A stretch of DNA of 38,903 nucleotides, taken from positions 1-38,903 of the IMG/VR virus record IMGVR_UViG_3300046463_000397. One strand, given 5' to 3'. This document shows, piece by piece, positions 4,120-38,903 of this stretch. Origin of the DNA: a virus. Positions within the stretch are counted from its first letter, which is position 1, and the number at the start of each line of letters is the position of its first letter. The notes beneath the pieces were generated by a model that worked only from the letters and a program-made list of their open reading frames with translations, searched no databases and had not been told where the DNA came from. The position numbers and the translations under genes were made by a program.

Positions 4120-4248
4120 TCAGTTAGCGGCCGGAGTGTCGTCGTCATCGTCGTCGCTGTCGGCAAAGAACACCAAGGCGGCGAAGCATCCGGTGAACGC
4201 CCATGCTGCGAGCGTCAGGCTTGCGAGGAACTCCGGCCAGGTATGCAT
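4120..4248 (-). CDS. Tiny membrane protein with Asp-rich tail, 42 aa
   Basis: The ATG at 4248 shares its A with the TAA stop of the preceding 285-aa gene (TAATG), which supports translational coupling. The peptide is MHTWPEFLASLTLAAW and onward, with one hydrophobic helix of about 20 residues ending FAALVFFAD, then a run of six aspartates and TPAAN. A single-span protein with a strongly acidic cytoplasmic or periplasmic tail. Small enough to be missed by standard gene callers. Role unknown. Confidence 0.55.
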   Translation of the reverse strand: MHTWPEFLASLTLAAWAFTGCFAALVFFADSDDDDDDTPAAN

Positions 4249-5105
4249 TACTGAGCGCGCTCGTCTTCAGCGATTTCGAGGATGCTGCGCACGAAGCGGC
4301 GCAGGCCGGCCTGGTCGAACTGGTACAGCGCCGGTTCAGCGGGCTCGTTCGCCACCGGCATGTTCAGCACGTTCAGGTCTTCGCACACCGCGGCGAGAAT
4401 CATCGCGTCGTATTCGCACTGGTCGTCAGCGCCGACGTACCAGCCGTCGGGAATCGACTCGCCATCGAGCATCGCGAGCAGGAGCTCGAGCTGCGCGTCG
4501 GCTTCAGCGCTGCCGGCATCGCTTTCCTGCGGGCGGCTGCAGTCGTCTTCCTCAGCTTCGACCACGTTCGCAACGGCCATCGCAGCGTAGACCGATGCGG
4601 CGCGGGCGCACTCGTCGGCGGGCTTCACAGCGCAGGCCATCGCAGCAGCCTGGAGGGCCGAAGAGCACACGCCGGCCGGGCGGTTCGTGAAGTAGTCCGT
4701 CACCGCGTCGAATGCGTCGGCGTCGGCAGCCTTGAGCTCCTCGTCAGTCAGCATGCCCTTCGCATGGCCCTCAGCGACGGCGAGGGCGCGGATTGCACGC
4801 GGGTCGACGAGCTTCTTCTGGACGCGACGAGCGCACTGCACGGCGAACATGCGGGCGAGGGCGGGTGCCGCGATATGGCCGGATGCGCCCAGGGCGAACA
4901 GGCCGGACTCAAGGCCAAAGACCGCAGCGATTTGCGAGACGAGCAGCTCGCCGGTGAAGCCAGGTGCCAGGTACTCCTGGAGCGCGGCGTCCGCGTCCGT
5001 GAAATCTGCGCCCTGTGCGGCGCGAATGATGCGGTTGTAGGCCGTCGCGCCCATGCCGGAATTGAGGAGTGCTTGCGACGTGACGGTGATGATTTGCTTT
5101 GCCAT
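4248..5105 (-). CDS. Hypothetical helical-repeat protein, 285 aa
   Basis: The start is placed at the ATG at 5105 (MAKQIITVTSQALLN), which has TAAGGAT upstream. An upstream in-frame Met at 5171 would add 22 unlikely residues and run through operator sequence. The protein is acidic and Ala-rich with a succession of helices (residues about 60-180), a low-complexity acidic middle (EAEEDDCSRPQESDAGSAEADAQ) and a C-terminal globular part (WYVGADDQCEYDAMILAAVCEDL). No family recognised with confidence. It is the first gene of a leftward operon preceded by tandem early promoters and a cluster of dyad operators, so its expression is probably repressor-controlled. Confidence 0.72.
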   Translation of the reverse strand: MAKQIITVTSQALLNSGMGATAYNRIIRAAQGADFTDADAALQEYLAPGFTGELLVSQIAAVFGLESGLFALGASGHIAAPALARMFAVQCARRVQKKLVDPRAIRALAVAEGHAKGMLTDEELKAADADAFDAVTDYFTNRPAGVCSSALQAAAMACAVKPADECARAASVYAAMAVANVVEAEEDDCSRPQESDAGSAEADAQLELLLAMLDGESIPDGWYVGADDQCEYDAMILAAVCEDLNVLNMPVANEPAEPALYQFDQAGLRRFVRSILEIAEDERAQ

Positions 5106-5160: not shown

Positions 5161-5236
5161 TTCGTTAACACCGCGGCGTCTGTTCGTTAACACACGCTGC
5201 GATGGAATGAATTCTGCCCGATTCGTGAACACGAAT
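5161..5236. promoter_or_regulatory. Operator cluster with TTCGTNAACAC repeats
   Basis: A perfect dyad ATTCGT-GAAC-ACGAAT lies at 5221-5236. Two related sequences, TTCGTTAACACCG (5161-5173) and TTCGTTAACACACG (5183-5196), lie downstream in the leader of the 285-aa gene. The dyad recurs as CATTCGT-N4-ACGAATG at 8833-8850 and 36814-36831. Confidence 0.65.
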
Positions 5237-5337
5237 ACCAATAACAGATTTTCATCATGCGAAACGAAAACAAAACTTTAGGTTATGAAGCGGCACCGAC
5301 CGAGAGAATGCGTAAGGCTTGTTTGCCTTCACGAGCT

Positions 5338-5428: not shown

Positions 5429-5692
5429 CTATGCGAGTCCGAATTGGGCCTGGCCCTGACGCTTGTGGAGCTCGAGGATGGTCTGCTCCAGGCGCTTCAC
5501 GGCTGCCGGCCCGCGGCGCTGGAGGATGCCGCCTTCGTCTTTGCCGTAGCGCGGGTTGAATGTGCCGTGGAGGTAGTCCAGGCGGTCGCGCTTGCGCGGC
5601 ATATTGAGGATGTGACGCGCTTCACATTCGTGGCGCCAGTCTTCACTGGCGGAATCCACGACGCGGCCATCGAGCAGGGTGACTTGTTTCAT
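5429..5692 (-). CDS. Conserved small phage protein, 87 aa (DUF7696-like)
   Basis: Begins MKQVTLLDGRVVDSASEDW. The pattern of a short beta start (VTLLDGRVVDS), W-x3-CEARHIL, an Arg-rich middle and a C-terminal helix with RRGPAAVKRLEQTI resembles a small protein common next to replication genes in Gram-negative phages. I recall it as a DUF7696-type family but cannot verify. GGAG precedes the ATG. It lies just downstream of the primase-helicase on the same strand and is probably co-transcribed. Confidence 0.7.
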   Translation of the reverse strand: MKQVTLLDGRVVDSASEDWRHECEARHILNMPRKRDRLDYLHGTFNPRYGKDEGGILQRRGPAAVKRLEQTILELHKRQGQAQFGLA

Positions 5693-5743: not shown

Positions 5744-8053
5744 TTAGATGGGCAGGCCGTTGTCGTAGTCGTCATCGCGGCCGTCGCGCATCGGCGGGAC
5801 GCGGAACACGGTGCCGACTTTCTTGTGCACGCCGTCTTCGCCGGTGAGCTTGCGCAGCACCTTGCCCATGAGAACCTGCTGCGAGCGGGCCGGCTTTTCG
5901 TAGCCGATAGCGACCAGCACTTCGGTTGCCGTCATCTCGCGGCGGATACTGGAATCCCAATCGAGCTTCGAGCGGGTCATTTCCTCTTCCGGCGTCACCT
6001 GTTCGTGCTTCGCGTTGAGGTTGGCCAGCGATTCGTTCTCTTCCGGCGTCAACCACCACTGCTCGCCGGTGCGGTAGTGCGTGAGGAGCTCCGCCCACAC
6101 CTGCTGCATGTCGATGCCGTGGTCGTAGTTGATGTGCACGGCCGGCACCGTCCACCAGCGGCGGTTACCCGTATCGTCGACCAGGTACGTCGGCTCGTTC
6201 ACCGACGCGCAGAACACCGTGCGGCGCTGGTATTCCGACTCGACGCGGTCATACGGGCGGCGCAGCTTGTCGGCGGCCTTCGTCACGAATGCCTTGAGCT
6301 TCGCGATGTCAGCCTTGCGGAACGTTGCGTCCAGTTCGCCCAGCTCGACGAGCCAGTGCGACACGACGTTTACGATGCTGTCTTTGTCAGACGGGTCCAG
6401 CGTCACGCCATCGAGCGTCACACCCATCTCTGCCGGCACCAGCGCCTTGAACCAGCGCGTCTTGCCCAGGCCCTGACGGCCGGTGAACACAATCGCACCA
6501 TGCGACTCAAAGCCGAACGGGTGGTAAATCGAGGCCACGGCCGAAATGAGCCAGCGGTACATCAGCTTGTTCTTCAGCGACGCGTCACCCTTCACGGTGA
6601 TAGTGTCGAGCAGCGCCTGGATGCGTTCCACACCATCCCACGGCTTCGACTCAATCCACTGGCAGACCGGGTTGTAGCTGTGGGCATCGGCCAGCGCCTT
6701 CACGTAGTCTGCAAGCATCGTCTGCGGCATGCGGTTGCGAGCGCAGATGCTGGTGAGCTGGGCGAGCGCGACGTTGCCGCGGTTGTCCATCGTGTTGCCT
6801 TCGCGGCCCGGGATAGTCAGCTCGACGGCCTTGCGCACTTCGTTGTACTTCGCCGTGATGCCGAACGCCTCCATCAGCTTCTCGAGGTTCTCGATGGTGT
6901 TGAGCGGCTGGCCCTTTTCGCTGGCGTCACGTGCCCAGTCGAGCTCGAGCTTCGAGTCGATGGTGGCGTACTTGACGGCAGCCGGAGCAGCGGGCAGCGG
7001 TGCCGACTCCATCTCGTCGAGCGTAGGACCGCCGGCCGCGACGCTTTCCGGGAAGCTCTCGTGCGTCTTCAGGTAGGAGAGGGTGTCTGCGGTCGTCCAT
7101 CCTTCTGCCTGGCCATCAGCGAGGTCCCAGCCGGCGTTGGCGACGTCAGGCTCGTAGTCGACCATGGTGACTGCGTTGCCCTGGGCCTGCAGGTTGGTTG
7201 CGATGGACAGCATTGCTCGTACTCCGGGTTGTTCGTGTTTCGGCAGGATGGCGCCGGTGGTTTTGTCAGTGTGTGCGTCAAAGTCAGGCCAGAGCGTCAC
7301 GTGGCGGCCGGCGAGCGGGCTCACGTCGGCGCGGGCGGCGGTGGCGACACCACCAAGCCAGGCCATGACGATGGCTGCGTTGCCGAAGAGCTCCTGGGCG
7401 GCGTCAGCGGCCTTCTCGCCTTCGACGATGACCACTTGCTTCAGCGGGTCAGCTGCGAGCTTCTCCAGGCCGTAGAGCGGGCGCGGCGTGTCGTTACCCG
7501 TGATGCCGCGGAAGCTCCAGCGTTCCGTGCCGTCCGGATTCTTGACCCAGGTGTACGGCGTGATTTGCTTGCGGCCGTCGGCGGGCTCATAGCGCAGGAT
7601 GTACATCATCAGCTCGCCAGCCTCGTTGCGATACTCCCACTTGCGGGCCGGGGTGCCGTGTTCCGGGTGATAGAACGTCGGCGCCTTTGCGTGGGCCGGG
7701 ACGGGCATAACCAGGACGGGCTTCGGTTCTTCGACGCGCGGCTTCGATGCCGATGCGAGCGCAGCCTTGCGGGCGGTGTCGTCGATGCTGATGCCGTTGT
7801 TCTCTGCCAGCTCTTTTGCCGCTTCGCCTTGCGTCATGCCGTGGAGGTGGGCGTAGAGCGAAATCATGTCGTTTCCGCTAACACCCTCGTCAGCGAAGTC
7901 TTTCCATTTGCCCGTCTTCATGTTGATGGTGAAGCTGCGCTGACCTGCCGGCACCCATTCGTTGCCCTTGCGCTTGCCTTCGGGGAACCACAGCGGAGCC
8001 ATGATTTCCGGGTTGAGGTTGGCTTTGATTACTGCGAAATCTGCTTTTTGCAT
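5744..8053 (-). CDS. VapE-type primase-helicase
   Basis: 769 aa. The N-terminal part (about 1-95) looks like a primase zinc-region replacement (GKWKDFADEGVSGNDMISL) with no complete cysteine set. A Toprim-like region has VIVEGEKAAD at 208-217 and WPDFDAH at 255-261. The C-terminal virulence-associated-E helicase has Walker A GRQGLGKT at 525-532, a Walker B-like segment ending GELD near 575, and the downstream NRRWWTVP signature. Such proteins open and prime phage or satellite origins. The plausible origin is the GGTGACGAA array at 9.0-9.3 kb, about 1 kb upstream. It gives the element a second replication system besides Rep. No clear RBS precedes the ATG. Confidence 0.9.
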   Translation of the reverse strand: MQKADFAVIKANLNPEIMAPLWFPEGKRKGNEWVPAGQRSFTINMKTGKWKDFADEGVSGNDMISLYAHLHGMTQGEAAKELAENNGISIDDTARKAALASASKPRVEEPKPVLVMPVPAHAKAPTFYHPEHGTPARKWEYRNEAGELMMYILRYEPADGRKQITPYTWVKNPDGTERWSFRGITGNDTPRPLYGLEKLAADPLKQVVIVEGEKAADAAQELFGNAAIVMAWLGGVATAARADVSPLAGRHVTLWPDFDAHTDKTTGAILPKHEQPGVRAMLSIATNLQAQGNAVTMVDYEPDVANAGWDLADGQAEGWTTADTLSYLKTHESFPESVAAGGPTLDEMESAPLPAAPAAVKYATIDSKLELDWARDASEKGQPLNTIENLEKLMEAFGITAKYNEVRKAVELTIPGREGNTMDNRGNVALAQLTSICARNRMPQTMLADYVKALADAHSYNPVCQWIESKPWDGVERIQALLDTITVKGDASLKNKLMYRWLISAVASIYHPFGFESHGAIVFTGRQGLGKTRWFKALVPAEMGVTLDGVTLDPSDKDSIVNVVSHWLVELGELDATFRKADIAKLKAFVTKAADKLRRPYDRVESEYQRRTVFCASVNEPTYLVDDTGNRRWWTVPAVHINYDHGIDMQQVWAELLTHYRTGEQWWLTPEENESLANLNAKHEQVTPEEEMTRSKLDWDSSIRREMTATEVLVAIGYEKPARSQQVLMGKVLRKLTGEDGVHKKVGTVFRVPPMRDGRDDDYDNGLPI

Positions 8054-8107: not shown

Positions 8108-8302
8108 TTACTGCTTTGCTGCGGCGACGGTGAGCTCGAGCAGGCGGAACGAATGCTCAGGAATCACTTGCTTGCGGGCGTTGTCGCTGCGCCAGATGCG
8201 CACGGTCTGATTGCTGCGGCCGAGCATTTTCGACACGTCGGTGATGCTCAGCTGGTGCTGCTCCATGAAGTCGAGCAGGCGGGTGGTGCGTTCGTGAATC
8301 AT
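8108..8302 (-). CDS. Small HTH DNA-binding protein A (64 aa)
   Basis: The start is set at the ATG at 8302 (MIHERTTRLLDFMEQH), with AGGAG eight bases upstream. A longer frame to 8461 lacks an RBS and runs through a hairpin. The HTH region is LSITDVSKMLGRSNQTVRIWRSD: helix, turn, recognition helix. It is a paralogue of the 60-aa protein at 8593-8775 (shared ERT.RLL..MEQH, QTVRIWRSDN, VIP, LLEL). These are the only repressor-like proteins near the divergent control region, so a Cro/CI-like pair is inferred. It would be a minimal regulator with no oligomerisation domain. Confidence 0.75.
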   Translation of the reverse strand: MIHERTTRLLDFMEQHQLSITDVSKMLGRSNQTVRIWRSDNARKQVIPEHSFRLLELTVAAAKQ

Positions 8303-8592: not shown

Positions 8593-8775
8593 CTACTTGC
8601 CGCGGTTTGCGATGAGCAGCTCGAGGAGCTTCAGCGCGTCGGCGGGTATCACCTGATTGTCGCTGCGCCAGATGCGCACGGTCTGCGGCGCACGGCCCAG
8701 GATTTCGGCTACGTCGGCAACTTCGAGGCGGTGCTGTTCCATCAGTTCGAGCAGGCGCTTCGTGCGTTCGTTCAT
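8593..8775 (-). CDS. Small HTH DNA-binding protein B (60 aa)
   Basis: The start is at the ATG at 8775 (MNERTKRLLELMEQHRLEV). An extended frame to 8835 would cross the promoter. The HTH is VADVAEILGRAPQTVRIWRSDN, followed by VIPADALKLLELLI. It is a paralogue of protein A, with nearly every landmark in the same place but a shorter linker after RSDN. Its own terminator lies at 8570-8547 and a CATTCGT-N4-ACGAATG dyad at 8833-8850 overlaps its promoter region. Repeated TAACTAT/ATAGTTA motifs at 8766-8800 and 8861-8890 could be additional sites. Probably the lysogeny repressor or its antagonist. Confidence 0.75.
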   Translation of the reverse strand: MNERTKRLLELMEQHRLEVADVAEILGRAPQTVRIWRSDNQVIPADALKLLELLIANRGK

Positions 8776-8832
8776 AGTTAACAGTTGTATCAGATAGTTA
8801 AGCAAGTGACGCAAGTATAAACGGTGCCATAC

Positions 8833-8850
8833 CATTCGTAGGCACGAATG
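8833..8850. promoter_or_regulatory. Dyad operator CATTCGT-AGGC-ACGAATG
   Basis: Perfect 7-bp arms around a 4-base spacer. It lies upstream of a minus-strand TATACT (about 8816-8811) that would serve HTH protein B, close to its -35 region. Same dyad as at 36814-36831. Confidence 0.7.
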
Positions 8851-9020
8851 CGATTGTTTTTAACTATGACGCCGATAGCCAAAAACTATTGATAATTGCT
8901 ATTATGTCAAATCGCACACCCATACGCGGTGAGCGTACGGCATTTCCGTGTCCTGGAGGCACTCTCAGCACTGAGCTGAAAGACGGGCCTTCAGGGTGTC
9001 GCAGGCTCGAAATCGCTCCT

Positions 9021-9327
9021 GGTGACGCTTGGTGACGAAGTCGTTCGTCACCGGTGACGAAGTTTTTGAAAAGTTCGTCACCCGATAAAGCCCAGTATTT
9101 ACAGGCTCTTCTCTCGAAAAAAAGGCTCGGTGACGAAGGTGACGAAGAAAACAACATTTATAAGGGGGCTATCTGATTGTTTGTATTTTGCCGATAGCCT
9201 GCCCTTCAGTATGGGAAAAGTTCGTCACCTTCGTCACCAGGGGGTGTTTTTTCGCAAAAAGACACTGCAATAACAAGGTGAAATCGCGGTGACGAAGTCT
9301 GAAAAAGTTCGTCACCACTTCGTCACC
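9021..9327. repeat. GGTGACGAA repeat array, candidate phage replication origin
   Basis: Eleven perfect copies of GGTGACGAA plus one GGTGACGCT in 307 bp. Plus strand: 9021 (variant), 9031, 9053, 9129, 9138, 9288. Minus strand: 9044, 9074, 9221, 9230, 9308, 9319. They form inverted pairs around A/T-rich spacers (9053/9074 and 9288/9308) and a large nested palindrome (9129-9146 against 9221-9238) that encloses GGGCTATC/GATAGCC arms. No credible gene occupies 8776-9444. The array lies between the leftward replication operon and the rightward late operon, where a lytic origin or a multi-operator switch would be expected. Confidence 0.85.
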
Positions 9328-9388
9328 TGAAGGCAAATCCTGCGACTAACAGTCTGGCGCTCGCCGCGCAGGCGTGTTAACGCGCGCG

Positions 9389-12058: not shown

Positions 12059-14091
12059 AAGTCACAAGCCAGTTCTCCAATCCGCTCGCCGTTCTCGCCT
12101 CGCTGCGGAACGCGCTGAAGCAACTCAAGCCGCCTCCGGACATCGCGCCGTCGAAGTGGGCGGAAGACAACGTCTGGATTCCTGAAGGCAATGCGAAGCC
12201 CGGCAAGCTGCGCTTCGCAAACGCGCCCTACCAGCGCGGCATGCTCGATGTCATCAAAGAGCCTGGCGTGTACCGCATCACGTACATGACCGGCGCGCAG
12301 CTGGGCAAGACGACCGTGCAGCAGTGCGTGACCGGCTACTTCATCGCGCACGAACCTCGCTCGCAGATGTTCGTGCAGCCGAGCCAGGGCGACGTGCAGA
12401 CGTTCCTCGAGACGAAGCTGCGGCCGATGCTCGAATCGAACCCGGCCATCAGCGAAAAGATGGCGAAGCCGCGCGGGCGCGAAGGCGTGAACAACAGCCG
12501 CATCATCAGTTTCATGGGCGGCTTCCTGATGTTCGCCTGGGCGGGCTCGACGAAGACCCTGCGCGGCCGCTCTGCGCCGATTATCCAGGCCGATGAAATC
12601 AACGGCTTCGAGACGACGGCCGAAGGCGACCCGGGCGAGCTCATCGCGCAGCGCGCGGCATCGTTCGGCGACCAGGCGCTGCGCACGGAAAGCTCCACGC
12701 CGACTGAGAAAGGCGGCCGTATCGACAAGGCGTTCTACGAAGGCGACCAACGCCGGTTCTATGTGCCCTGCCCGCACTGCTCCGCGCCGCAGTATCTGCG
12801 CTGGGAGAACGTGATGTGGACTGGCCGGCAATCGACCGGCATCGACGACTACGCGAAGGACCAGGACCGCGCGGACCAACACAACCCGGCGGACGCGCAG
12901 TACATGTGCGAAGCGTGCGGCGTGGGCTGGAGTGACGCGGAACGCAAGGCTGCGATTCGTGCCGCTGAAGGCCTGGGTCACGGCTGGAAGGCTGCGAAGC
13001 CGTTCAAGGGCCACGCATCGTTCCATGCGCCGGAGCTCCTCTCGACGTTCCGCGACATGAGCAAAATCGTCCAGTCCTACCTGGACAAAATCGCGCTCGA
13101 CGACATGCGCTCGTTCGTGAACGTGTCGCTTGGTGAGCCGTATGAAGTCGAAGGCGACAAAGCCGACCCGAACAAGCTGCTCGCGCGCCGGGAAGTCTAC
13201 AAGGCCCAGGTGCCGATGGGTGGCGTGTACGTCACTGCCGGCATCGACGCGCAGAACGACCGCCTGGAAGTGGAGCGCGTTGCCTGGGGCGTGAACGAAG
13301 AGAGCTGGCGCATCGACTACAAGGTGCTCTGGGGCGACACCCTGCTGCCGGAAGTGTGGCATGAGCTCGAGGACTACCTCAGCGAGGAGCTGGTGCACGA
13401 ATCCGGCGCCGTGATGCGTGTTCGCGCGGCCTGTCTCGACACTGGCGGCCAGGACGGCTACGCACCGGTGGCGTATGACTGGCTCCGCGGGAAGACGGGC
13501 CGGGGTATTTTCGGTATCAAAGGCACGCCGGGCTGGGGCAAGGGCATCCTGGGCTCGATTATGCGCAAGCAACAAGGTAAGAACGCGCGCAAGGTTGACG
13601 TGTACCCGGTGTATGTCGACGAAGGCAAGCTGCTCGTCATGCGCCGGCTCGCGCTCGAAGCGCCTGGGCCGGGCTATTGCCACTTCGGAGAAGACGCCGA
13701 CGAGGAATATTTCGCGCAGCTCACCTCCGAGAAGCTCATTACGCACTATACGAAAGGGTTCCCGGTGCGAAAGTGGTACAAGCCGCCGAAGGCGCGGAAC
13801 GAAGCGCTGGACTGCCGTGTGTACGCCTACGCCGCGCTGAAAATCATGCGTCCGGACCTGAAAAGGCTCGCTGAACGCCTGGTTGGCGCCGACTACGTGC
13901 CGCCGAAGCCGCTCCTGAAGCCCAAAAAGGCCCCAGAAGCCGCTCCAGCGCTGGCCGTAGAGGCTCCGGCAGCCGCGCCTATCTCGCAGGAGGAACAAAC
14001 GGTCCAGGCGCCCGAAAATGTGCCTATTGTCCGGTCCAAGCGTCTGCAAGCCCGTCGTGGCGGTGGCGGAAGCTGGGCCACACGCTGGTAA
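12055..14091 (+). CDS. Terminase large subunit (lambda GpA-like)
   Basis: 678 aa, the normal GpA length (~640) plus a Pro/Ala-rich C-terminal extension. The N-terminal ATPase has a Walker A-like TGAQLGKTT near residues 79-87 and IIQADEING as Walker B. A CPHC...CEAC zinc-binding pair lies in the middle. The nuclease half follows (YVTAGIDAQNDRLEVERVAWG, ACLDTGGQDGYAP). It packages DNA and cuts at cos. The C-terminal tail (about 615-678) contains APISQEE, encoded by a copy of the 20-bp dispersed repeat. Confidence 0.95.
   Translation: MKVTSQFSNPLAVLASLRNALKQLKPPPDIAPSKWAEDNVWIPEGNAKPGKLRFANAPYQRGMLDVIKEPGVYRITYMTGAQLGKTTVQQCVTGYFIAHEPRSQMFVQPSQGDVQTFLETKLRPMLESNPAISEKMAKPRGREGVNNSRIISFMGGFLMFAWAGSTKTLRGRSAPIIQADEINGFETTAEGDPGELIAQRAASFGDQALRTESSTPTEKGGRIDKAFYEGDQRRFYVPCPHCSAPQYLRWENVMWTGRQSTGIDDYAKDQDRADQHNPADAQYMCEACGVGWSDAERKAAIRAAEGLGHGWKAAKPFKGHASFHAPELLSTFRDMSKIVQSYLDKIALDDMRSFVNVSLGEPYEVEGDKADPNKLLARREVYKAQVPMGGVYVTAGIDAQNDRLEVERVAWGVNEESWRIDYKVLWGDTLLPEVWHELEDYLSEELVHESGAVMRVRAACLDTGGQDGYAPVAYDWLRGKTGRGIFGIKGTPGWGKGILGSIMRKQQGKNARKVDVYPVYVDEGKLLVMRRLALEAPGPGYCHFGEDADEEYFAQLTSEKLITHYTKGFPVRKWYKPPKARNEALDCRVYAYAALKIMRPDLKRLAERLVGADYVPPKPLLKPKKAPEAAPALAVEAPAAAPISQEEQTVQAPENVPIVRSKRLQARRGGGGSWATRW
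13975..13994 (+). repeat. Late dispersed repeat, copy 2 (inside terminase gene)
   Basis: GCGCCTATCTCGCAGGAGGA, in frame as APISQEE. It is 101 bases upstream of the next gene start (14095). Confidence 0.75.
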
Positions 14092-33589: not shown

Positions 33590-33872
33590 CGTCGCTATCC
33601 CCTTCCGCCGGCATCGTGAGCATCTCCTGCTCGTCGTGTTCGGCGGCCAGGAGCAGCTTCTCGCGCGCGCTCAAACGGCTGTACTCGCCTTCGCACTTCG
33701 GGCCGCAGAACAGGCGCATGGCGTCGGTGAACGGCTCACCACAGCGCGGGTTCAGACACTCGCATCGCGGCGTCAGGCGCGGCGTACGGGCAGCCAGGGA
33801 GCGGACGCGGTCAATCGCATCCTGCGTGTTCTGAGCCTCCAGCTCGGAGGCGTAGTCGAGCTCGTCAGCCAT
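33576..33872 (-). CDS. C4 zinc-finger protein (TraR/DksA-like N-terminus)
   Basis: 98 aa from ATG 33872 (MADELDYASELEAQNTQDAIDRVRS). The N-terminal MADELDxAxxxE helix is that of phage TraR/DksA-type proteins, which bind RNA polymerase. The metal site is CEC-LNPRCGEPF...RLFCGPKCEGEY, in which FCGPKC-x2-EY looks more like a Zn-ribbon with an FCS..C motif than the usual CxxC-CxxC finger. Acidic tail GDSDDDDQ. May tune host transcription. Overlaps both neighbours. Confidence 0.78.
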   Translation of the reverse strand: MADELDYASELEAQNTQDAIDRVRSLAARTPRLTPRCECLNPRCGEPFTDAMRLFCGPKCEGEYSRLSAREKLLLAAEHDEQEMLTMPAEGDSDDDDQ

Positions 33873-34062
33873 TGCTCTGCTCCTGCGTGTGCAGGTTCTC
33901 GGCTTCGAAGGCCATGACGGCTGCGAGCGGATAGCGCACCTTCGCGCCAAGCTTCTGGTACGCGGGGCCGCGGCCCTTCGAGCGCCAGTTCGCCAGCGTG
34001 CCTACGCTGACTGCGCCACCCCATCGGGCGGCAAGTTCTTCGGTTGTGAGATACGTGTTCAT
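33865..34062 (-). CDS. Excisionase/AlpA-like HTH protein, 65 aa
   Basis: From ATG 34062: MNTYLTTEELAARWGGAVSVGTLANWRSKGRGPAYQKLGAKVRYPLAAVMAFEAEN. This is a MerR-type winged HTH (HTH_17): TTEELAARW, TLANWRSKGRGPAY and VRYPLAAVMAFE are the classic sites. With no integrase present it is likely a transcription regulator rather than a recombination directionality factor. An upstream frame extension to 34128 lacks similarity. Overlaps the zinc-finger gene by eight bases. Confidence 0.82.
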   Translation of the reverse strand: MNTYLTTEELAARWGGAVSVGTLANWRSKGRGPAYQKLGAKVRYPLAAVMAFEAENLHTQEQSNG

Positions 34063-34151
34063 GGTGTGGTGTGTGATTCGAGTAGTTGGCGATGATGGGA
34101 GACGTCGGTGAGCCCCGCAGGGCTGCATGACTCTTCTCTAACGTCGGAGGG

Positions 34152-35247: not shown

Positions 35248-36681
35248 ATGACCCCCATCGTCCTTCGCGACTATCAGCAAGACATGATTGTCGGCTGCCG
35301 GGCCGCGCTCAAGCGCGTCAAGCGCGTTCTCCTCCAGGCCCCTACGGGCGCAGGCAAGACGGTTCTCGCCTCCTACATGATTTCCCGGTGCGCATCGCGC
35401 GGCGACGCGGCTTGGTTCATTTGCCACCGCGCTGAGCTCGTCGCGGGCACCAGCAACACGTTCACGAAGTTCGGCATCCCGCACAGCCAGATTGCGGCCG
35501 GCTATTCCGAGTCGCTCGAGCAGCTTGTGCAAGTGTGCTCCATCGACACGCTGAAGAACCGCCTCAAGAAACTGAAGGCCCCGCGCCTCGCAGTCATCGA
35601 CGAAGCGCACCACAGCGGCGCTGCGGGCTGGTCGAAGGTCATCGACTGGCTGCGTGAGAACGGCACCACCATCGTGGGCCTCAGCGCCACGCCTCAGCGC
35701 CTGGACGGCAAGGGGCTCGACGCGCAGTTCGACGAGATTGTCCTGGGGCCGCAAACGGCCTGGCTCATCGAGAAAGGCAACCTGGCGCCGTACAAGCTCT
35801 ACGCGCCGCACGTGCCCGATATGAAAGGTGTGCGCAAGGCAATGGGCGACTTCAGCAAGGCCGATGCGGCCGCGCGGATGGACAAGCCGACCCTCACTGG
35901 AGATGCAATTGAGCACTGGAAAAAGTACGCGAACGGCATGCGGACGGTCGTGTTCGCCATCAATGTCGACCACTCGAAGCACATCGCAGAGCAGTTCTGC
36001 GCGGCGGGCATCCCTGCTGCTCACCTCGACGGTGACACGCCCAAGGCGGAGCGCAAGGCCATCATCGCGGCCTACGCTGCCGGCGAGCTCCAGGTGCTCA
36101 CGAACGTAGACCTGTTCGGCGAAGGCTTCGACCTGTCGGCAATCGCTCAGACGGACGTGACGATTGATTGCGTAATGCTCATGCGCCCGACGCAGAGCCT
36201 GGCCCTGTTTCTCCAGCAAGTTGGCCGCGCGCTCCGTCCGGCGCTGGGCAAAATCGCCGTCATTCTCGACCACGCTGGCAATGTGATGCGCCACGGCTTC
36301 CCGGATGACGAGCGCGAGTGGTTCCTGGTGGGCAAGAAAGGCAAGTCGAAGGGCGGCGCAGACACGCTCGACGCCGGCCCTCCTCCGCCGATGACTTGCG
36401 GCTGCTGTTTCCAGCAAGTGCGCCGGCCGGCAGTCATCTGCCCGACGTGCGGCACGGAGCTCACCGCGCCCGCGGAAGTGAAGGCAATCACGGTGTCGAA
36501 GGCGGAGCTCATCGAAATCAAAGAGCGCGAGAAGGCGCGCATCCGCGACATGCGCAAGCGCGAGGAAGCTGCGTGCAAGTCGCTCCAGGACTGGATTGCG
36601 CTGGGCAAGCAACGCGGCTATGAATTCCCGGCGGCATGGGCTCTGAAGCGCCACGGCCTGCGTTCCGCCAAGGCAGCCTGA
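35248..36681 (+). CDS. SF2 DNA helicase (DEAH, UvsW/RadD-like) with zinc ribbon
   Basis: 477 aa. Motif I APTGAGKT (31-38), motif II DEAH (118-121), motif III LSATP (145-149), motif V LFGEGFDLS, motif VI QQVGRALRP (323-331). A C-terminal four-cysteine ribbon (CGCC..., CPTCG; 384-402) and a coiled tail follow. Such helicases remodel forks and recombination intermediates, helping replication and repair. It heads the rightward early operon. Ends KRHGLRSAKAA. Confidence 0.93.
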   Translation: MTPIVLRDYQQDMIVGCRAALKRVKRVLLQAPTGAGKTVLASYMISRCASRGDAAWFICHRAELVAGTSNTFTKFGIPHSQIAAGYSESLEQLVQVCSIDTLKNRLKKLKAPRLAVIDEAHHSGAAGWSKVIDWLRENGTTIVGLSATPQRLDGKGLDAQFDEIVLGPQTAWLIEKGNLAPYKLYAPHVPDMKGVRKAMGDFSKADAAARMDKPTLTGDAIEHWKKYANGMRTVVFAINVDHSKHIAEQFCAAGIPAAHLDGDTPKAERKAIIAAYAAGELQVLTNVDLFGEGFDLSAIAQTDVTIDCVMLMRPTQSLALFLQQVGRALRPALGKIAVILDHAGNVMRHGFPDDEREWFLVGKKGKSKGGADTLDAGPPPPMTCGCCFQQVRRPAVICPTCGTELTAPAEVKAITVSKAELIEIKEREKARIRDMRKREEAACKSLQDWIALGKQRGYEFPAAWALKRHGLRSAKAA

Positions 36682-36797: not shown

Positions 36798-36813
36798 ATG
36801 AAACGAAGGTTGA

Positions 36814-36831
36814 CATTCGTAAACACGAATG
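36814..36831. promoter_or_regulatory. Dyad operator CATTCGT-AAAC-ACGAATG
   Basis: Perfect 7-bp arms. Its centre is about 25 bases past the -10 box, so binding would block transcription of the small-membrane-protein/OMP/nuclease operon. Same dyad at 8833-8850 and (6-bp arms) 5221-5236. Confidence 0.75.
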
Positions 36832-36873
36832 CTACCTTTCGAGTTAACTAAACCTCACCCGGAGTTGTATACC

Positions 36874-37035
36874 ATGAAAGACCTCCTCTTTGTCTCGCTG
36901 TTTCTCGGTTTCGTGCTGTCCGCACTCGGCGTCCTCTGCAAGTCGCTGCCGCGCTGGCTGGCCATCCCGGTGCAGGGCTTCGCGTTCGGCGGCGTCGCGC
37001 TGACGGCAGTCTGCGCCGTGGCCCGGTTCTTCTAA
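36874..37035 (+). CDS. Small two-helix membrane protein, 53 aa
   Basis: Start at ATG 36874 (MKDLLFVSLFLGFVLSALGVL) with GGAG 10 bases upstream; the in-frame ATG at 36829 lies in the operator. Two hydrophobic helices joined by KSLPRW, ending AVARFF. First gene behind the repressor-type operator. Could act in exclusion or as a membrane modulator, but nothing in the sequence proves this. Confidence 0.65.
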   Translation: MKDLLFVSLFLGFVLSALGVLCKSLPRWLAIPVQGFAFGGVALTAVCAVARFF

Positions 37036-37038
37036 GCC

Positions 37039-37314
37039 ATGTTCATTAAACCGAACATCCACACGCTCACGGCTGGCAAGGTGCGCGGCTGGGGCATCAA
37101 CGTTCCGCTTGACGCCGCGATTCCTGACGCCGCCACGGTTGAGCCGTGTGAGGTAGCTGTCGCGATGGACATGCAGTCGCGGCGCGCTGAAGGCGTCGTC
37201 GTCGTGCACGCCAATTTCGAAGCGCCGTTCCGCTGGACCGACACCGACGGCAGTCCGTGCGCCTGGTACGTCGGCGCGATTCAGTTCAATGCAAATGAAG
37301 GAGTAGCAGCATGA
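37039..37314 (+). CDS. Hypothetical protein, 91 aa
   Basis: Begins MFIKPNIHTLTAGKVRGWGINV, beta-rich (VEPCEVAVAMDMQSRRAEGVVVVHANFEAPFRWTD). Ends FNANEGVAA; the stop overlaps the start of the outer-membrane protein gene (ATGA). No signal peptide. No family recognised. Confidence 0.65.
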   Translation: MFIKPNIHTLTAGKVRGWGINVPLDAAIPDAATVEPCEVAVAMDMQSRRAEGVVVVHANFEAPFRWTDTDGSPCAWYVGAIQFNANEGVAA

Positions 37315-37757
37315 AGAAAACCATCCTGGCCCTGACGGCCGCCCTCGCCTGCTCCGCTGCTCACGCTGAGTTCCTGGACCGTGTCGACCTGTCGCCGGCG
37401 CTGGTGAGCGGGTTCGTGACGCATCACATCAACGTGCACACGGACAAGTACAACGAATTCAACTACGGCATCGGATACCGGTTCGCGAGCCCAAGCATCA
37501 TCGTGGGCGTGTATCACAACAGCGACTACAAGACGAGCTTCTACGCGGGCTACGAGGCACGGTGGCGCATCGTGAATCACCTGGAGGTCGGCGCGGTCGC
37601 CGGGCTGGTGTCTGGCTACAAGCATCACGTCGTGCTGCCGCTGCTGATGCCTGAAGTGGTTGTGACGGCCGGCAGGTTCGAGCTGGCTGGCGCAGTCTCG
37701 CCGCACATCGCAGACATGCCCGCGCTTGTCACCGCTCAACTTCGTTTCAAGTTCTGA
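37311..37757 (+). CDS. Candidate outer-membrane beta-barrel protein, 148 aa
   Basis: A clear Sec signal (MKKTILALTAALACSAAHA, cut before EFLD). The mature 129 residues alternate hydrophobic/polar strands with aromatic belts (FNYGIGYRFASPSIIVGVYH, YKTSFYAGYEARWRIV, LEVGAVAGLVSGYKHH, FELAGAVSP), and the last residue is Phe (TAQLRFKF), the BAM-recognised end. Eight strands fit the size. Placed behind a repressor operator with other early genes, not in the tail module. Phage-encoded barrels such as lambda Lom change the host surface. Receptor blocking is a reasonable inference but unproven. Confidence 0.75.
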   Translation: MKKTILALTAALACSAAHAEFLDRVDLSPALVSGFVTHHINVHTDKYNEFNYGIGYRFASPSIIVGVYHNSDYKTSFYAGYEARWRIVNHLEVGAVAGLVSGYKHHVVLPLLMPEVVVTAGRFELAGAVSPHIADMPALVTAQLRFKF

Positions 37758-37759
37758 CA

Positions 37760-38089
37760 ATGACCAAAACAATTACCGCTCGCATGGAGTTTTTCAACCC
37801 GCAACTGCCCATCCTGTCGGACAACGCAGAGCACACGTCGTGGGCTAAGCTGCTGAAGTCCGCTGCGGACGACGACGGTGAAGATTTCGACAACCTGATG
37901 GTTTGCACTAGGGACCACGCCTCGCTGAATGAAGTGTTCTATGACGGATATGGAGGCGTGTACGGGACGCCGAACTTCACGGCCTGGGGCGACAAATGGG
38001 TGTACTTTCCGCTCGGCAACGAGGGCGTTCCGGCCATCGGTCGCGCGCCTCGTAATCCGTGCGGCTTCGCGATGGAGCCGCAGGCATGA
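37760..38089 (+). CDS. Hypothetical protein, 109 aa
   Basis: Begins MTKTITARMEFFNPQLPILSD. Body contains WAKLLKSAADDDGEDFDNLMVCTRDHASLNEVFYDGYGGVYGTPNFTAWGDKWVYFPLGNEGVPAIGRAPRNP, rich in Gly, Asp and aromatics, probably compact alpha/beta. No signal. Its stop overlaps the nuclease start (ATGA). Function unknown. Confidence 0.65.
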   Translation: MTKTITARMEFFNPQLPILSDNAEHTSWAKLLKSAADDDGEDFDNLMVCTRDHASLNEVFYDGYGGVYGTPNFTAWGDKWVYFPLGNEGVPAIGRAPRNPCGFAMEPQA

Positions 38090-38532
38090 GCGAGCACCGC
38101 ATACAGTCGGAAATCCGCAACGCCCTTGCGGGCGAGTGCATCCTGTTCCGCGTGAACTCCGGCCGGGCGTGGACTGGCAACGACATTCACAAGCTGCCCG
38201 ACGGCAGCATCCTGATTCGCGACCCGCGGCCTTTCGATTCAGGGGTGCCGACAGGATTCAGCGACACGGTCGGCGTTGTGACGCGCACCATCACGCAAGA
38301 CATGGTTGGCCAGACCATCGGCCAGGCCCTGTTCGGCGAAATCAAGACGGCGACGGGCCGTGTGACGCCGGAGCAGGAGAAGTTCATTGCGGCTATGAAG
38401 CGCGCTGGAGCCGCGGCGGACGTCTGGCGGAGCCCCGAGGATGCGCTCGCTACCGTGCGGGCCGCGAAGGGCTGCAAGACCGCTGTGGCGCCCTCCTCCC
38501 GCGCGTCAAAGCCGAAGCGTTCCTCGCAGTGA
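38086..38532 (+). CDS. VRR-NUC domain nuclease
   Basis: 148 aa from ATG 38086 (MSEHRIQSEIRNALAGECILFRVNSGRAW). PTGFSDTVGVV and FGEIKTATGRVTPEQEKFIAAMKRAGA are the VRR-NUC core: the GxxD-like bend, E-x-K catalytic pair and Q. Such stand-alone nucleases cleave branched DNA such as Holliday junctions. The longer frame from 38059 overlaps too far. The tail (about 128-148) is basic and Ser-rich (SSRASKPKRSSQ). Last gene before the plasmid replicon. Confidence 0.88.
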   Translation: MSEHRIQSEIRNALAGECILFRVNSGRAWTGNDIHKLPDGSILIRDPRPFDSGVPTGFSDTVGVVTRTITQDMVGQTIGQALFGEIKTATGRVTPEQEKFIAAMKRAGAAADVWRSPEDALATVRAAKGCKTAVAPSSRASKPKRSSQ

Positions 38533-38586: not shown

Positions 38587-38658
38587 CAGCGCAGGACCGG
38601 CGCTTCGCGAGCTCTACGCGTCGCGGCGATTCGGACACACTGCCAACCCGTCCGACTG

Positions 38659-38676
38659 ACGTTGCATTTGTCCGAA
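38659..38676 (+). repeat. Distal iteron downstream of rep
   Basis: ACGTTGCATTTGTCCGAA, one or two mismatches from the origin iterons, in direct orientation. It is about 1 kb from the main origin, beyond the 3' end of rep. Confidence 0.75.
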
Positions 38677-38751
38677 TGCCTGAAACGGTTGTCCGGCAAG
38701 GATTCTGGCCAAAACGAGTCCTGAGCTAGTCGTACAAACAGGACGGTTGCA

Positions 38752-38769
38752 TTCGGACAGATACAACGT
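38752..38769 (-). repeat. Distal inverted iteron overlapping the rep stop codon
   Basis: The minus strand reads ACGTTGTATCTGTCCGAA, identical to the iteron at 935-952. It overlaps the first base of the rep TGA. Degenerate copies (CGGTTGTCCG, CGGTTGCATTCGGACA) lie between this site and 38659. Confidence 0.8.
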
Positions 38770-38903
38770 CAGTCGGACGCCTCGCCATCATGTCCGAATA
38801 GGCTGGGCTGCATTTCGGGAGAGAACGAGAACTCCAGGCTCGACACCTTACGACCACCAAGCCTGACGGCCTTCCACTCAATGTCCATCGGCACACGCTC
38901 ACG
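38769..38903 (-). CDS. rep: Replication initiator protein, C-terminal end (continues at position 127 downward)
   Basis: This is the 3' end of the rep gene after the circular join. It contains the final codons ending GHDGEASD and the TGA stop at 38771-38769. The stop codon overlaps by one base an inverted iteron at 38752-38769, so the coding end and a Rep binding site touch. Positions 38777-38903 duplicate window positions 1-127 and are not a second gene copy. Confidence 0.85.
   Translation of the reverse strand, partial: RERVPMDIEWKAVRLGGRKVSSLEFSFSPEMQPSLFGHDGEASD
38777..38903. repeat. 127-bp terminal direct repeat, right copy
   Basis: Exact copy of positions 1-127. It duplicates codons from the 3' part of rep. 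It should be collapsed to one copy when the circle is closed. Confidence 0.95.

Follow-up and report, generated by a model that had tools for sequence, protein, structure and literature searches.

The window analyzed here, i.e., the whole stretch of 38,903 nucleotides, encodes a terminase, portal, capsid, sheath, and baseplate, as well as ParA and an RHH-like partner read from the sequence. A direct repeat of 127 bp was found at its termini (1-127 and 38777-38903), and the gene for a Rep3 initiator spans the record ends. Judging from the terminal repeat, the genome is probably circular, about 38.8 kb long, and presumably that of a phage-plasmid. As such, it appears to belong to the contractile-tailed group around Mano and PPpW-3; no integrase was found among the proteins searched, which covered part of the late proteins. 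Repeats of the ACGTTGCATCTGTCCGA type, possible iterons of the initiator, flank the Rep3 gene (893-954 and 38630-38790). The genes and features dealt with below are as follows.

4248-5105, minus strand: gene for a 285-aa protein of unknown function (phrog_18326), first gene after dyad 3
5161-5171, plus strand: half-site TTCGTTAACAC, degenerate neighbor of dyad 3
5183-5193, plus strand: half-site TTCGTTAACAC, second degenerate neighbor
5220-5237, minus strand: dyad 3, upstream of the gene for the 285-aa protein
5429-5692, minus strand: gene for an 87-aa protein (phrog_11642) between primase and dyad 3, a conserved marker of place
5744-8053, minus strand: primase/helicase gene
8108-8302, minus strand: HTH A, 64 aa, paralogue of HTH B
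8593-8775, minus strand: HTH B, 60 aa, the proposed ligand, phrog_14341 "transcriptional repressor"
8833-8850, minus strand: dyad 2, upstream of HTH B
33865-34128: MerR-like HTH_17 protein
35248-36681, plus strand: DEAD/ResIII helicase gene, directly upstream of dyad 1
36810-36838, plus strand: promoter-like block around dyad 1, conserved in relative L001 with diverging flanks
36814-36831, plus strand: dyad 1, CATTCGT-AAAC-ACGAATG, between the genes for the helicase and the 53-aa membrane protein
36874-37035, plus strand: gene for a 53-aa membrane protein, first gene after dyad 1
37311-37757, plus strand: gene for a 148-aa outer-membrane-type protein (phrog_3600, PagP-like), downstream of dyad 1
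38089-38532, plus strand: gene for a VRR-type nuclease, end of the operon

Analysis of the neighboring genes with PADLOC, including the first genes of the putatively regulated operons, revealed no match to a defense system. In the genome L003 (L numbers are our own handles), another outer-membrane-like gene follows the third site.

The dyad with 7-bp arms, CATTCGT-N4-ACGAATG, occurs without mismatch at 8833-8850 and 36814-36831, and a third copy with perfect 6-bp arms lies at 5221-5236; all of these arms, as described in the initial annotation, were recovered in the sequence. The exact 6-bp form ATTCGT-N4-ACGAAT was counted three times in the window (5221, 8834, and 36815), each time shortly upstream of a gene. 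Two degenerate neighbors had also been proposed at 5161 and 5183; each of them indeed carries the half-site TTCGTTAACAC, but the right arm is lost, leaving single half-sites and not dyads. A scan of the window for further sites detected the exact core TTCGT-N4-ACGAA at the three intergenic places only (three mismatch-free matches, none of them within coding sequences as read here), and not in many unrelated coding regions, while matches with one mismatch at 12403, 14659, and 25241 are situated inside late genes. The hexamer GTTAAC was noticed near all three dyads and elsewhere in the window too (10 copies, with 3.6 expected). The recurrence within the window alone was only weakly significant: of 60 first-order Markov simulations, 8 produced a family of at least three dyads with 6-bp arms and any spacer of 0-12, and 6 contained a dyad with 7-bp arms more than once. 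A chance origin of the dyads, allowed by the window alone, was ruled out by the relatives.

In the close relative L001 (IMGVR 3300047320_000119), which has an HTH B orthologue of 87% identity, all three dyads are kept at orthologous places. At the place of dyad 1, a block of 29 bp (TTGACA...TACCTT) is identical between divergent flanks; at that of dyad 2, both arms are altered symmetrically (ATTCGC-N4-GCGAAT); and at that of dyad 3, which precedes a 280-aa gene there, one arm is altered (ATTCGTATGAGCGAAT). One half-site element of the 5161/5183 type is kept as GTGTTAACGAA. A block of 40 bp upstream of dyad 2 (TTTGACATAATAGnAnTTATCAATAGTTTTnGGCTATCGGC, minus strand, window 8860-8930) is strongly conserved in L001 as well.

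Homologs of HTH B were detected in named phages, a Klebsiella plasmid, and IMG/VR contigs; a scan of genome contigs with HTH B resulted in one distant relative only, and a plasmid search with the 285-aa protein in no match. Dyads of 14 bp with the same 5-N4-5 geometry were present in more than 12 related genomes, among them Mica, ep3, Arya, HeidiAbel, MQ-4, Persinger, Mano, the Klebsiella plasmid, and IMG/VR contigs. In most of the homolog-bearing relatives, a dyad precedes HTH B, with further copies after the DEAD helicase and after the primase, and this three-place layout was found in Mica, L027, L029, ep3, Arya, MQ-4, Persinger, the BASEL phage HeidiAbel, and others. No dyad was found for the distant HTH B homologs L036-L039 and L041, and a third "site" in FoX1 and FoX3 was not counted because it lies inside a gene.

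The window carries the half-site TTCGT, and L001 has TTCGT/TTCGC; the Mica types have TTCAC. The half-site TTTAC is shared by ep3, MQ-4, Persinger, and HeidiAbel, and those of Arya and Mano are TTTAA and TATAC-like, respectively. All three sites are perfect in Arya (TTTAA-N4-TTAAA) and, each in its own half-site class, in MQ-4 and L027, and HeidiAbel carries TTTAC sites at the three places, two perfect and one near-perfect, ahead of genes at 1854, 4443, and 7295 of L048. Perfect matches to the TTCGT class numbered three in the window and none in six relatives, and those to the TTTAA class three in Arya and none in the other genomes. Using one 14-mer per locus from 14 genomes, with some of the sites picked by eye, which favors agreement to some extent, the half-site distance within genomes was 0.525 of 5 compared to 1.505 after shuffling sites among genomes, with none of 20,000 shufflings as low; one genome per lineage gave 0.41 compared to 1.47 (again 0/20,000). 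The perfect sets of the window, Arya, MQ-4, and L027 are independent of the choice by eye, and the N4 spacer, serving as a control, revealed no within-genome agreement. A further test was restricted to the three control regions, with the half-site left free. Here, none of 1000 random triples of stretches was as good as the window, and the same was true for ep3, L027, and Arya; Mica, L029, and MQ-4 (two regions) were equaled by one of 1000, and L001, Mano, PPpW-3, L031, and L014 gave no significant result. The dyad was confirmed as real, with the comparison with the relatives being decisive.

In regard to promoters, dyad 1 is flanked by a -35 hexamer TTGACA (36810-36815) and a -10-like TACCTT (36833-36838) at a spacing of 17 bp. 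Dyad 2 covers the -35 region of a promoter with its -10 TATACT at 8814-8819 on the minus strand, and dyad 3, also read on the minus strand, has TTGGTA (5236-5241) before and CAGAAT (5211-5216) after it. The symmetry of the dyad turns the side away from the gene into a built-in control: a -10-like hexamer (at least 4/6 match within 16 bp of the dyad) was located on the gene side at 36 of 41 sites and on the opposite side at 9 of 41, counts that include some sites chosen by eye. At the HTH B promoters of the relatives, the left arm lies at the -35 position, about 18 bp before TACAAT, which is the place for a putative repressor that would keep the polymerase off. The same layout in relatives supports the earlier assignment of the three sites to the promoters of HTH B, the 285-aa operon, and the membrane/OMP/nuclease operon.

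When regulators were compared across genomes, HTH B was found throughout those with sites; among the DNA-binding proteins checked, it is the factor common to all, with a dyad at its own promoter. The phrog_14341 profile matches over the HTH domain of HTH B (E 4e-10) and of HTH A (E 4e-12). Neither the window nor L001, L029, and ep3 yielded the CI-like HTH protein, whose gene adjoins the helicase, and in the window and L001 a large ParB was not detected either; RHH-ParB was present in the window, L001, and L029 only, HTH A as a separate gene in the window and L001 only, and the Klebsiella plasmid lacks a Mor-type late activator. RHH-ParB, the CI-like HTH protein, and HTH A were rejected as sole ligands, being missing from genomes that retain the sites. 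With a shared factor and half-sites that are concordant within genomes and different between lineages, the initial proposal of a 60-64-aa HTH protein as the best candidate ligand held up.

An AlphaFold2 model of HTH B (20 sequences, mean pLDDT 83) displayed four helices, a single small HTH domain of predicted lambda-repressor-like fold, with helix 3 (30-37) as the recognition helix. Within this helix, Gln31 is nearly invariant, but is replaced by Ser in Arya (TTTAA) and by Thr in Mano (TATAC-like), the genomes with the most deviant half-sites, and by His in FoX1, whose sites are imperfect; these few cases appear to fit a change of specificity. Foldseek and VIA-align 2 placed HTH B among Cro/XRE-type domains, which fill the match list, with Aca10 (Z 9.5), C.EcoT38IS (8.4), Aca2 (8.2), and Aca1 (7.7, in a structure solved on a 14-bp palindrome). 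As Z values of 7-9.5 are common for this fold, they indicate what HTH B works like and not its membership in a family.

HTH A could take the place of HTH B at the dyad or bind there alongside it, the two competing like CI and Cro; the 58% identity of HTH A to HTH B in the alignment and its recognition helix, which retains QTVRIW, would suit this. However, many genomes without HTH A possess the operators, and the promoter of HTH A itself has no dyad but a different motif, so that we regard this reading as unlikely. HTH B is favored over HTH A because the relatives lacking the latter retain the sites. Whether HTH B would rather activate at weak -35 regions is a question raised by the dyad at 8833, which lies over a poor -35 hexamer at a place where a consensus scan gave no promoter for HTH B. 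Activation is nevertheless quite improbable, as the dyad in 36810-36838 sits between a perfect TTGACA and the -10, leaving no room for the polymerase, and most relatives have the end of the dyad 2-10 bp ahead of the -10. It is very improbable that another shared regulator is the ligand, above all the MerR-like HTH_17 protein: though nearly as widespread as HTH B (in nearly all genomes with its region available), it does not have the dyad at its promoter, as HTH B does, and it is the changes in the recognition helix of HTH B that go with the half-site changes in Arya and Mano.

In phage N15, partition sites are located among phage genes, and the window is plasmid-like, too, with ParA, the RHH-like protein, and the Rep3 initiator. 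Still, it is hardly credible that the dyads are dispersed centromere sites of a ParA/RHH-ParB partition system, given that they occur in many genomes without RHH-ParB and without this ParA/ParB altogether. RNA hairpins or terminators can practically be dismissed: 8833-8850 with its T-rich tail appeared terminator-like in a consensus scan, but this reading was ruled out by the lack of the T-tail at the other two sites and the L001 counterpart, by the position of the dyads 2-15 bp ahead of -10 hexamers, and by half-sites concordant between unlinked sites, which hairpins would not require.

Altogether, the dyad is very probably the operator of HTH B, a putative small repressor that would act as a dimer on three early promoters, including its own. 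Beside what was computed, namely the sites, their conserved places, the within-genome concordance, the placement on the promoter side, and the shared factor, we infer dimer binding, repression, and a Cro-like role in early shut-off instead of that of a lysogeny repressor. HTH B would accumulate early, and its dimer would bind the 14-bp core TTCGT-N4-ACGAA with one recognition helix per half-site. The putative operator would lie between -35 and -10 at 36814 and 5220 and over the -35 region at 8833; because of this position inside or across the core promoter, the bound dimer would exclude RNA polymerase. HTH B would then turn down its own synthesis, perhaps also the replication genes behind it, as well as the 285-aa operon and the membrane/OMP/nuclease operon. 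The genes concerned are of early type (nucleases, small membrane proteins, and unknowns), and HTH B persists in genomes that lost the integrase and CI-like genes, which makes a Cro-type shut-off likelier than a lysogeny repressor. Related phages in large number would have retained such a circuit, in which the half-site changed in step with HTH B. As a tentative and somewhat doubtful extension, HTH B and the three operators might constitute a conserved CI-independent circuit for early shut-off and immunity in the whole phage group; the half-site would set the specificity group, and several lineages would have rewritten it jointly at all three loci (TTCGT, TTCAC, TTTAC, TTTAA, TATAC).

Small HTH repressors acting on dyad operators are already known. 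Cro-type repressors recognize a short dyad in early promoters, including their own. Like the 434, lambda, and P22 Cro type, HTH B combines a single small HTH domain with a short dyad in early promoters, and a dyad, its putative operator, lies at its own promoter; it differs in that each of three separate promoters would carry a single operator. In the relatives, the CI-like gene sits elsewhere; the window lacks it, and HTH A might play the CI part at shared operators. The Aca repressors (Aca10, Aca1, and Aca2) are small HTH proteins like HTH B, with Aca10 and Aca2 among the top structural matches; at the sequence level, Aca3 alone was hit with a non-significant E of 0.98, and HTH B apparently acts at three separate promoters instead of one. 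Aca10 itself, a small four-helix dimer, binds to an inverted repeat that obscures the promoter of its own operon (PMC9410881).

According to the portion of PMC11990801 available to us, the cI-like repressor of Iiscvirinae is a phage regulator lost or decayed in several members. Its gene, which adjoins the helicase, comes from the same phage group but is different from HTH B, and HTH B and its sites remain where the cI-like gene is gone, e.g., in ep3 and the window. "Transcriptional repressor" is a computed name of phrog_14341, matched by both HTH B and HTH A, and a literature search revealed no paper describing its operators. Likewise, no published account was found of a regulon with these three sites in this phage group; in that same portion, PMC11990801 discusses only the cI-like gene and calls the lifestyle of the Jilinvirus group enigmatic. 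For Jilinvirus, Micavirus, Manovirus, Foxunavirus, and their relatives, which are thinly characterized, our analysis supplies a candidate regulator and three putative operators, one set of which, in E. coli phage HeidiAbel (Bas97), is directly testable. Furthermore, these phages offer a natural series of joint specificity changes in a small putative repressor and its three unlinked sites, which should be useful for deciphering its recognition code.

A second promoter motif, TTTCACGyTATACTA, was detected before several operons including that of HTH A, often with TCGACA 16 bp ahead. It is kept in L001, had no match in Mica, ep3, Mano, and Persinger, and may have HTH A as its ligand. Its positions in the window are:

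3664, 5351, 5388, 8341, 8378, and 35168, minus strand: second motif
9404, 26662, 35207, and 36784, plus strand: second motif

The non-coding region 9010-9330 harbors many direct and inverted copies of GGTGACGAA, including a perfect inverted pair of 18 bp at 9129/9221; these repeats are possibly an origin or the sites of another regulator. Finally, the circular Klebsiella plasmid record NZ_CP095260 (L042) of 10,895 bp, which has no virion genes annotated, corresponds to the early region of such a phage and carries three perfect TTCAC-N4-GTGAA sites.
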